A DNA stretch of 64,000 bases from Janthinobacterium sp. GW458P (GTDB lineage: Bacteria; Pseudomonadota; Gammaproteobacteria; Burkholderiales; Burkholderiaceae_D). The stretch is from NCBI RefSeq assembly GCF_002127585.1, contig NZ_NEGZ01000001.1, positions 403,774-467,773 of the forward strand. The letters are read 5' to 3'. Positions within the stretch are counted from its first letter, which is position 1. Each line of letters opens with the position of its first letter. Position numbers and translations under genes: made by a program. Below, one piece after another: positions 18,933 to 22,095 of the stretch. The notes beneath the pieces are model-generated. The model worked only from the letters and a program-made list of their open reading frames with translations. It was not told the DNA's origin and did not search any database.

Positions 18933-19754
18933 TTAATAGCGGTAAGTGACATACACGGCGCCGATCGGCGATGTCTTGCGCTGCACGATGGGGCTCTTGG
19001 CCGCGTCGCCCAGACGGCTCTCGACGCCGATCAGCGTATTGACGCCCCAGCGCGCATCGATGCGGTGCTCCCAGTTGACGGTGGCTTGCGCTTCATAAAA
19101 GCCGCCTTTGGGCGTGTATTGCTTGAACGAGGTATTTGCCGCCTGGGCCGCCGTCACGCCATACATGGTCTGCACGTACTTGCGCTCGCCCCAGCCCAGC
19201 TGCCCGCCGATGGTCACGCTGTCCTGCTGTACGCCCTTGGCGTCAGCCCTGCCGTAGACCTGGCCGCTGGCGCCGAAATGCACGTTCGCGCCATTTTCGC
19301 GATTCGACAGGGGGATGTCGCTCGAGACGCTCAGCGACACGCCCGGCATGGGGGAGTAGGCGGCGCTCAGCAGGGCGCTGGCGTTGCCCTTGACTTCGCC
19401 CATGCCCTTCAGGTAGTCGCTGCCGCCCCAGCCGTTGACGCCCTTGCGCTTGTGGTCTTCGCGGTTGCCGCGGTAGCCCAGCGCGGCGCTGTAGCTGAAG
19501 GGGCCGGCCTGGCCGCCGTAGCCGATGCCGCGCGAAGTGCTGAAGAACAGGCCGTTGGCCATGGCGTAGTCGAGAATGACCAGCGGCGAGGCGGACAGCT
19601 TGTCGGAGCCGGAATAGCTGGACACGGCGGCAACGCCGCCGCCGATGGTGAAGACATTTTCCGGGGCGGGTTCGGCGGCGGCTGCGGCCAACGGGTTCAG
19701 GGTCAGGCCGCAGGCCAGTGCCAGCGAGGTCAACAGGGTAGTAGGTGCGTGCAT
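18933..19754 (-). CDS. MipA/OmpV family outer-membrane protein
   Basis: 273 residues with an N-terminal signal peptide cleaved near residue 26 (ALAAAAA region). The mature part is a beta-barrel rich in alternating hydrophobic residues, ends in VYVTYRY with a terminal aromatic, and has the family features GGGVAAVSSYSGSD and SRGIGYGG. MipA-type proteins are barrels tied to murein enzymes or to small-molecule and antibiotic responses. Here the gene is divergent from a QseBC/OmpR-type two-component system and shares a 157-base control region with repeated sites, a common arrangement in which the sensor system controls the barrel gene. Confidence 0.88.
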   Translation of the reverse strand: MHAPTTLLTSLALACGLTLNPLAAAAAEPAPENVFTIGGGVAAVSSYSGSDKLSASPLVILDYAMANGLFFSTSRGIGYGGQAGPFSYSAALGYRGNREDHKRKGVNGWGGSDYLKGMGEVKGNASALLSAAYSPMPGVSLSVSSDIPLSNRENGANVHFGASGQVYGRADAKGVQQDSVTIGGQLGWGERKYVQTMYGVTAAQAANTSFKQYTPKGGFYEAQATVNWEHRIDARWGVNTLIGVESRLGDAAKSPIVQRKTSPIGAVYVTYRY

Positions 19755-19824
19755 GGAGGTTTCCGTCAGGTGGAGAACCGAGGCCGGAGTGGCTCGATTG
19801 ACTGCGGCTAGTATCGGCCTGTGT

Positions 19825-19865
19825 CATGAAGGAAAAATGAGCCCTTTATGAAGATTGCATGAAGG
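19825..19865. promoter_or_regulatory. Four direct repeats with 11-bp spacing, likely response-regulator sites
   Basis: CATGAAGG at 19825, AATGAGCC at 19836, TATGAAGA at 19847 and CATGAAGG at 19858 start exactly 11 bases apart. OmpR-type regulators bind tandem half-sites on one face of the helix with this spacing. They lie between the MipA-like gene and the regulator gene at 19912, so control of both is likely. Confidence 0.6.
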
Positions 19866-19911
19866 CTGCTTCTTTACCTATTCTTCAGCTAGCGGTGGTT
19901 TAATACGATGC

Positions 19912-20598
19912 ATGAAGATACTGCTGATTGAAGATGATATGGACCTGGGCAATGGCGTGCGCATCGCCCTGCGTGACCAGGGCATGCAAGTAGTCTGGGT
20001 GCGCAGCCTGGACGATGCGGTGCGCAGCCTGGAGCACGACAGCTGCGAGCTGGTACTGCTGGACCTGGGCTTGCCCGACGGCGATGGCCTCGACCTGCTG
20101 GCCAGATTGCGCACGGCCCGCCTGCCGGTGCTGATTCTCAGCGCCCGCGACACGCTGGAGCAGCGCTTGCGCGGGCTGGACGCCGGCGCCGATGATTACC
20201 TGGTGAAACCGTTCGTGCTGGCCGAGCTGCTCTCGCGCGTGCGCGCGCTGGCGCGCCGCAGCTACGGCTTCGACGGCGATACCATCGAGCTGCGCGGCCT
20301 GCTGCTGCAAGTGCCCACGCGCCGCGTCAGTGTCCACGGCCGTCCCGTGGAGCTGACGGCCAGCGAATATGCGCTGCTGAAAACCTTGCTGATGCGCGCC
20401 AACCGCGTCATCACGCGCCGCGTGCTGGAGGAACACATCCTGCCGGGCGGCCTGGCCAATGCCAGCAATACCCTGGATGTACATATGGGTAACCTGCGCC
20501 GCAAGATAGGCGAAGGCTATATCCGTACCGTGCGCGGCGTCGGTTATGTGATCGACCAGCAGGGCGATACGCCCGCTCAGCCTGGCGCCGGCACATGA
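19912..20598 (+). CDS. OmpR-family response regulator (QseB/TctD-like)
   Basis: 228 residues. The receiver domain has acidic residues IEDD near the N-terminus, phospho-acceptor aspartate 51 in LLDLGLPDGDG, and lysine in YLVKPF. The C-terminal winged helix is of OmpR type (LTASEYALLKTLL, NTLDVHMGNLRRKIG, IRTVRGVGYVI). The ATG at 19912 begins MKILLIEDD; open frame continues to 19855 but would cover the repeated sites. Its stop overlaps the ATG of the kinase gene (ATGA), so the two are coupled. Likely targets are its own operon and the divergent MipA-like gene. Confidence 0.95.
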   Translation: MKILLIEDDMDLGNGVRIALRDQGMQVVWVRSLDDAVRSLEHDSCELVLLDLGLPDGDGLDLLARLRTARLPVLILSARDTLEQRLRGLDAGADDYLVKPFVLAELLSRVRALARRSYGFDGDTIELRGLLLQVPTRRVSVHGRPVELTASEYALLKTLLMRANRVITRRVLEEHILPGGLANASNTLDVHMGNLRRKIGEGYIRTVRGVGYVIDQQGDTPAQPGAGT

Positions 20599-21983
20599 TG
20601 GGGCGTTTCTGGCGCATGTTGTGGCGCCCCACGCTGGTGCGCCGCCTGATGATGGCGCAAATGCTGATGCTGACAGTGTTGTGGAGCCTGGCGGTCGCGT
20701 ATGTGCTGATCGAGGGCACCGGCGAAGCGAGCAATGTGAGCCGCGGCGTGCTGCGCGCCATCATCAGCGTGGCCGACAATCTGGCCGACCAGCCGCAGCG
20801 ACAGCAGCACAGCCTGCGTGCGATCGATGAAGCCTTGCGCGAGGAGTTTGAAATGGGGCAGTTGCCGGAGCTGGCGCCGCGCATTCTGGTCTGGCGTGAC
20901 GGCAAGCTGGTCTACAAGTCGCCCGACGCGCCCAGCGGTATCCGCAGCGCCGGCCCGGAGCAGATGGAAGTGGTGTATATCAAGGGCCAGGCCTGGCGCA
21001 GCCGCAGCCTGGTCGAGGGCGTCACGCGCGTGACCGTGCTGGAGGCGGGCGGCGCCTGGCAATTCTTCGTCACCATCAATTCACATGGTTATTACTTGCT
21101 GCCGTTACTGATCAGCTTGCCTTTTCTGCTGTTGCCGGCCTGGCTGTCGATCCGTCTGGCCATGCGCCCGTGGCGCAAGGTGGCGCAGGAGGTGGCGGCG
21201 CGCGGCCCGCAGGATTTGCGTCCGCTGACGTTCAAGCCGCCGCACGGCGAACTGGCGGCGCTGGTCGACAATATCAATGCGCTGTTGCAGCGCGTCGACA
21301 CGAGCGCCGCGCGCGAGCGCAGCTTCATCGCCGACGCCACGCATGAACTGCGCACGCCGCTGGCGGCCATGCGCGTCAATGTCGAGGCCCTGCAGGGCCA
21401 GACGCATGACCCACGCCAGCAGGAGTTGCTGGACGGCATCCTGAACAGCGGCAACCGCGCGGCGCGCCTGGTGGGCCAGTTGCTGCAACTGACGCGCAGC
21501 GAGGTGCAGGCGGAGGCGGGTGAGCAACTCCGGCTGCAGGCGCTCGATACCTTGCTGCAAGACCGTCTGGCTGCCCTGTCCGGCCTGGCACAAGCGGGCG
21601 GCATCGAACTCGAGCTGCAGGCCAGCGTGTCGCTGCGCGTGCCAGGCCAGCGTGAAAGCCTGGTATCGCTGATCGACAACCTGGTGGAAAACGCCATCAA
21701 GTACAGTCCGCGTGGCAGCAGCGTGACGGTGTCGCTGCACGCGGAACGGGGCCACGCCGTCGTGCATGTGGCCGATCAGGGGCCAGGCATCGCGCCGGCC
21801 CTGTATGAGCGCGTGTTCGACCGTTTCTTCCGCGCGCCGCAGCAGCCGCAGCCGGGCAGCGGCCTGGGCTTGTCCATCGTTGCCTCGGTAGTACGCCAGC
21901 ATGGCGGCACGATTCAGTTGCACCGTGGCAATGGTGGCCTGGGCTTGCTGGTGGAGGTACGGTTGCCGCTGGCCGATGCCTGA
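20595..21983 (+). CDS. Sensor histidine kinase (QseC-like)
   Basis: 462 residues, inner-membrane sensor. Span 1 at about 20-40, a periplasmic domain of roughly 125 residues (41-163), span 2 at about 164-186, then a linker, HisKA with phospho-histidine 250 in DATHELRTPLA, and a HATPase with NLVENAIKYSPRGS, DQGPGIAP and GSGLGLSIV. It phosphorylates the regulator encoded immediately upstream, with which it overlaps by 4 bases. The periplasmic domain has no motif that reveals the signal. Confidence 0.95.
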   Translation: MMGRFWRMLWRPTLVRRLMMAQMLMLTVLWSLAVAYVLIEGTGEASNVSRGVLRAIISVADNLADQPQRQQHSLRAIDEALREEFEMGQLPELAPRILVWRDGKLVYKSPDAPSGIRSAGPEQMEVVYIKGQAWRSRSLVEGVTRVTVLEAGGAWQFFVTINSHGYYLLPLLISLPFLLLPAWLSIRLAMRPWRKVAQEVAARGPQDLRPLTFKPPHGELAALVDNINALLQRVDTSAARERSFIADATHELRTPLAAMRVNVEALQGQTHDPRQQELLDGILNSGNRAARLVGQLLQLTRSEVQAEAGEQLRLQALDTLLQDRLAALSGLAQAGGIELELQASVSLRVPGQRESLVSLIDNLVENAIKYSPRGSSVTVSLHAERGHAVVHVADQGPGIAPALYERVFDRFFRAPQQPQPGSGLGLSIVASVVRQHGGTIQLHRGNGGLGLLVEVRLPLADA

Positions 21984-22095
21984 CTGCGCGTCTTGTGGTA
22001 TTGCATGAAGATTATTTTATGTGTATATAACGCAAGATGGCATGGCGTGGCGCACGCCTGCGATGCATAATGCGGGACAGTCAGAAAACACCGTT

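Follow-up and report, generated by a model that had tools for sequence, protein, structure and literature searches.

In the 64,000-nucleotide stretch of Janthinobacterium sp. GW458P DNA analysed here (the window), the gap between a mipA-like gene and a divergent response regulator gene is predicted to hold two promoters. The OmpR/PhoB-family regulator encoded next to the gap would bind a separate box at each of them and activate both. We give this reading, drawn from sequence comparison, a probability of roughly 0.8. The half-sites composing the two boxes are predicted with high confidence to be binding sites of the adjacent regulator, while the prediction that its effect is activation is made with good, if somewhat lower, confidence.

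A divergent MipA and two-component unit

The mipA-like gene (18933..19754, minus strand) encodes a MipA/OmpV outer-membrane protein of 273 aa (Pfam PF06629, E 4.1e-34), and from its start at 19754 an intergenic gap of 157 bp extends to the start, at 19912, of the gene for an OmpR/PhoB-family response regulator of 228 aa (19912..20598, plus strand; Pfam PF00072 and PF00486). It is followed on the same strand by a sensor histidine kinase of 462 aa (20595..21983; Pfam HisKA and HATPase_c). As the kinase start and the regulator stop overlap by 4 bp, identically in 45 of 45 loci, regulator and kinase genes are one operon. The sites described below thus adjoin a gene for a protein with the receiver and winged-helix Trans_reg_C domains that a box of the OmpR/PhoB family calls for.

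The regulator falls below every listed NCBIfam equivalog cut-off. Its best NCBIfam match is PmrA (216.6 bits against a cut-off of 330), so that it does not qualify as a PmrA orthologue, nor, with 161.4 bits against 345, as an orthologue of QseB. The kinase is QseC-like at 200 bits, below the cut-off of 475. Among solved structures, the top matches of the regulator are the BasR chains 4s04 and 8jo2.

Phased half-sites and two predicted back-to-back promoters

Four half-sites facing mipA on the minus strand lie at exact 11 bp steps, as a preliminary description of this DNA had reported. Given in plus-strand letters, these are half-site 1, next to mipA (CATGAAGG, 19825..19832; core CTTCAT on the minus strand), half-site 2 (AATGAGCC, 19836..19843), half-site 3 (TATGAAGA, 19847..19854) and half-site 4 (CATGAAGG, 19858..19865), all resting on the sequence and on alignments. 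Half-site 2 deviates from the core, and half-site 3 reads ATTAAG in most loci of the genus. The four copies score 22 of 24 against ATGAAG at a period of 11, and 12-14 at periods 8-10 and 12-14. None of 400 dinucleotide shuffles of the gap equalled this score at any period from 8 to 14 on either strand, the consensus having been derived from the array itself; a self-similarity score free of any consensus was never equalled in the 400 shuffles at period 11, and a single one of them equalled it when periods 9-13 were allowed. For 11 paralogous regulators encoded by the window's genome, the best 11 of 90 other matches, the upstream regions reach at most 15 of 24 as compared with 22 for the array.

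The opposite strand carries a second set, absent from the preliminary description, which points toward the regulator gene. It consists of half-site 5 (TTCTTTA, 19870..19876, plus strand) and, 11 bp from it, half-site 6 (TTCTTCA, 19881..19887, plus strand), the upstream and downstream halves of a regulator-promoter box that reads CTTYA-N6-CTTCA in 46 of 46 orthologous loci. With four half-sites on one side and two on the other, repeated directly in tandem at 11 bp or about one helical turn, the arrangement is of the type that the preliminary description had ascribed to OmpR-family regulators, and the phasing across orthologous loci bears this out. Among the TGAAG spacings of up to 60 bp in the 46 upstream regions, only 11, 22 and 33 recur in three or more loci; relaxing the motif to TGA[AG][GC] adds 48 (7 loci).

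Read toward the gene it faces, each set is built on the core CTTCA and closes with CTTCAN-N10 before a hexamer resembling a -10 element. The predicted mipA -10 hexamer (19810..19815, minus strand; AGTATC on the plus strand, GATACT on the minus strand) lies 10 bp from the nearest half-site, and the predicted regulator hexamer TTTAAT (19899..19904, plus strand) begins 10 bp after CTTCAG and ends 7 nt before the ATG. As each set ends 10 bp before such a hexamer, we interpret the gap as a pair of class II promoters placed back to back, in which the site lies over the -35 position at a fixed distance from the -10. Judged by sequence, this geometry recurs on the mipA side in 42 and on the regulator side in 43 of the 46 loci, the regulator hexamer being TTTAAT, TTAAAT or TCTAAT in those 43. 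The distance from this hexamer to the ATG is just 7 nt in the window and stays within 6-8 nt across the 46 loci, which is why the regulator mRNA is predicted as likely leaderless. No ribosome-binding site is evident between the predicted -10 and the ATG (19899-19912).

The same boxes could serve repression of mipA, of the regulator operon or of both by a regulator that blocks RNA polymerase at the -35, since they cover that position and an OmpR-family regulator is able to repress a porin gene, as an excerpt on CzcR states (PMC7380067). We consider this unlikely. The distance from box to -10 is nearly invariant in both promoters, where a repressor site would tolerate shifts, and it is near that of class II PhoP-activated promoters of Salmonella as excerpted from PMC3335776; in addition, the mipBA operon of Pseudomonas aeruginosa is activated by ParR according to the cited part of PMC10936184, a precedent which positive control of mipA fits. 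Activation of both promoters is therefore the preferred reading.

As to the joint control of mipA and regulator proposed in the preliminary description, the control itself finds support, in the form of two separate boxes instead of a single common element, since the four repeats belong to mipA and the regulator has a box of its own.

Conservation across orthologous loci

The 46 orthologous loci comprise 33 from the genus, 12 from four other genera of the family and one from Kosakonia quasisacchari; L043, which duplicates L046, was left out, and L177, which came to light later, stands outside this count. The right pair is present in all 46, as CTTTA/CTTCA in 36 and as CTTCA/CTTCA in 10, at 41-43 nt before the start codon throughout. 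It scores at least 12 of 14 in 41 loci and in none of 996 control windows taken from the rest of 45 of the loci, of which two score 11 and 56 score 10; the remaining five loci score just 10-11, a level that 58 of the 996 control windows reach. In the orthologous gaps, on the conservation of which the preliminary description had made its proposal depend, TGA[AG][GC] phased at 11 bp is kept in 43 of the 46. The mipA -10 (AGTAT or ATTAT) stands at its fixed spacing in 42 loci, in three of them as measured from a fifth half-site on the mipA side, and is missing at that spacing in L056-L058. This fifth phased half-site, the reference point for those three measurements, can be seen by eye in L037, L038 and L041, in a more degenerate form in the latter two. 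In an alignment of 14 array sequences, for which windows were chosen by the best ATGAAG score and three weaker rows were excluded, all 15 invariant columns fall within half-site cores.

Within the genus, conservation amounts to 0.96 for the left half-sites, 0.90 for the left spacers, 0.91 for the mipA leader and 1.0 for the right half-sites. As the whole gap is well conserved there, conservation in the genus by itself is weak evidence, and the other genera with their changed spacers are more telling. The strong conservation of the gap, spacers included, would suit repeats that are an incidental by-product of the general constancy of a short gap and have no regulatory role; this explanation is nevertheless hardly credible, given that four other genera and, judged by eye, Kosakonia keep the pattern with their spacers changed, that arrays also occur at the unrelated hydrolase promoters described below, and that shuffling fails to produce the pattern (0/400; 1/400 for the consensus-free score over periods 9-13).

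The Kosakonia quasisacchari locus (L058:1458-4566) has a regulator 69% identical to the one in the window and an adjoining MipA 44% identical. In this gammaproteobacterium the same divergent unit is seen, with TGAG/TGAAG sites in phase and TTCTTCA as a pair, and the MipA/regulator-kinase unit was possibly transferred between lineages. While the array is clear by eye, the array model R1 scores it at just E 0.449, within the range of chance hits: in six of seven other genomes scanned beside Kosakonia the best R1 matches lie at E 0.056-0.8.

Co-occurrence with the regulator

The regulator is present in 33 of 40 genus genomes (E 1e-70), and the array (R1, E 0.01) in 32 of these 33 and in none of the seven without the regulator. 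These counts are to be read with the facts that nine of the 32 array-positive genomes contributed rows to R1, that three of the seven regulator-less genomes are only 82-88% complete, and that R1 scored only 150 candidates in each genus genome out of some 700-2,100 and missed sites which a pattern search found. The single exception among the regulator-bearing genomes, G023, has no MipA match and has lost the left array, and it keeps the right pair. This case would be expected if the two sets were read by different OmpR-family regulators with the right pair alone autoregulatory, which we hold to be quite improbable: both sets share the CTTCA core, the 11 bp period and the 10 bp spacing to the -10, and the array was not found in the seven regulator-less genus genomes, among them G003, which codes for a 42% identical MipA. 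A single regulator acting on both sets remains the favoured account. Outside the genus, the array is still present in L049, L050 and L053, where mipA is missing, reduced to a remnant or truncated, which suggests that mipA was lost next to a regulator-kinase pair that stayed conserved.

In wider searches at E 1e-62, three genomes of the 349 from the order and one of the 369 from the class have the regulator, the window's own genome counted in each, and the plasmid collection gave no match at E 1e-60. At L177, from another family, a degenerate four-copy phased array is visible by eye, with no MipA match adjoining.

Further candidate targets

A second array was detected by R1 in eight of the 40 genus genomes, in seven of them before genes of one alpha/beta-hydrolase family; the eighth (G019) has neither a hydrolase match nor the AGTATC hexamer. 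A search for a three-copy pattern with up to two mismatches gave 22 matches in 11 of the 40 genomes, compared with one for the reversed control pattern, and added four hydrolase loci missed by R1 (G004, G016, G026 and G027). Hydrolase arrays hence occur in 11 of 40 genus genomes (L146, L147, L211-L213, L215, L216, L219 and L223-L225), each reading AGT[AG]TC-N10-ATGAAG, with AGTATC in nine and AGTGTC in two. The L147 hydrolase matches PF00561/PF12697, and the ten others are 58-79% identical to it. The sites at these promoters argue that the array is a predicted target acted on in trans, beyond a merely conserved gap. The N-termini of several of the hydrolases resemble lipoprotein signals by eye, and a YheO-like regulator gene lies opposite the hydrolase gene in L146 and L147. 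The window's genome has no close copy of the hydrolase (best match 34% over 114 residues).

The same genome carries, at G000:C1:260375-260402 (L148, L222) and so outside the window, ATGAAG in three exact copies with an 11 bp period. This three-copy array without mismatch is unique among the 40 genus genomes, and no counterpart of the site was matched in the other 39 at up to two mismatches; the corresponding place in G001 has no more than two copies in phase, and one of these is ATTAAG. It is directed toward a gene with an H-NS C-terminal domain (PF00816) and reads CTTCAT-N10-TAAATA about 110 bp before the gene start, which makes the H-NS-like gene a candidate target by its sequence. L148 is a weak R1 match (E 0.352) despite its exact array. 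With a promoter model of two half-sites (R2), which is weak and whose alignment is shifted by one column in the upstream half-site, the two best matches in the window's genome are the two known promoters (E 3.5e-4 and 0.019), all others having E >0.6. Two further pattern matches, G004:C1:4520596 and G039:C84:1698, have neither a hydrolase match nor such a -10 and are left unexplained.

The preliminary description had also suggested that a single related half-site, CATGAAGA, which is indeed present at 22004, could connect the second kinase system with this one. This link finds no support: the half-site has no 11 bp partner, and of the 19 genus loci (from 45 loci) that could be anchored at this position by the downstream TAACG[CT]AAG[AT]T, eight retain TGAAG while the other 11 lack it. 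The window reads CATGAAGATTATTTTATG at 22004-22021, before the second, FixL/FixJ-like system. A dyad-like element CATGAA-N5-7-TTCATG, found in five of the 19 anchored genus loci and not in the window itself, may be an operator of that system.

Proposed mechanism

The phosphorylated regulator would bind head-to-tail, one dimer per two half-sites, and in the -35 position the dimer would act as a class II activator by recruiting RNA polymerase. At the right pair, one dimer would give positive autoregulation of the regulator-kinase operon, while two tandem dimers at the left array would give a stronger or more switch-like response of mipA. The signal would be envelope stress, with MipA feeding back on it; our confidence in this part is lower than in binding or activation.

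A broader and tentative picture, which we think possible and would not expect to hold in full, is that of a compact, partly transferable envelope-sensing module. Its regulator would be a relative of PmrA with a half-site shifted from CTTAAT to CTTCAT (with His195 to Gly/Ala and Glu199 to Arg in the recognition helix), expressing its own operon leaderless from one dimer and MipA from two; the hydrolase would have been recruited in some species and the H-NS-like gene in this strain, and MipA and hydrolase would be envelope co-sensors feeding back on the kinase.

Comparison with known systems

The open-licence PMC literature yielded nothing on Janthinobacterium combined with a two-component system and MipA, and, on direct repeats in response-regulator promoters, no CTTCAT among the matches listed. 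The closest known box is that of PmrA (BasR) in enterobacteria, where, as here, an OmpR/PhoB-family regulator is paired with head-to-tail hexamers repeated at 11 bp. In Klebsiella, PmrA binds the two head-to-tail half-sites CTTAAT and CCTAAG with 5 bp between them, as the cited passage of PMC3973317 has it; the spacing fits the present sites, but their sequence is CTTCAT and not of the CTTAA type. Of the PmrA residues, Asn188, Asn196 and Arg210 read bases (excerpt of PMC4660055), and Asn188, Val192, His193, Asn196 and Arg210, with roles taken from the cited parts of PMC4660055 and PMC3973317, are kept in the regulator alignment, whereas Ser, Gly and Arg replace Thr187, His195 and Glu199, changes which could accompany the CTTCAT half-site. 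The targets found likewise differ from those of PmrA, being mipA, the hydrolase gene and possibly the H-NS-like gene, with lipid A modification genes lying outside the search.

In its promoter geometry the unit is similar to the architecture-I (class II) promoters of Salmonella PhoP, in which the box takes the place of the -35, some 12 nt ahead of the -10 (PMC3335776, as excerpted); there, a single PhoP box is present, here, four phased half-sites at mipA. BesRS of Burkholderia thailandensis, a two-component system for envelope stress, includes a MipA/OmpV-family gene in its regulon, and its cis element at penL is described in the cited extract as TGCG/CGCA inverted repeats with a 4 bp direct repeat, unlike the 11 bp TGAAG repeats found here (PMC9426598). 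In P. aeruginosa, the cited portion of PMC10936184 reports that ParR directly binds and activates the promoter of the MipA-encoding mipBA operon and that MipA is proposed as a polymyxin co-sensor. The likeness is a two-component regulator at the promoter of a MipA gene, with the difference that mipA stands behind mipB there, whereas here mipA and the regulator gene are direct neighbours in divergent orientation. In the co-sensor reading, MipA and hydrolase would be analogous to MipA and the beta-lactamase-fold lipoprotein MipB of P. aeruginosa, an idea that becomes testable in another lineage.

Cumulatively, a regulator outside the listed NCBIfam equivalogs gains a defined candidate for its binding code, together with a few predicted targets. 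After ParRS-mipBA and BesRS, the unit would be another case in which a MipA-family protein is tied into a two-component system for envelope stress, and its regulatory boxes are well supported as a familiar kind of switch with a distinct half-site.
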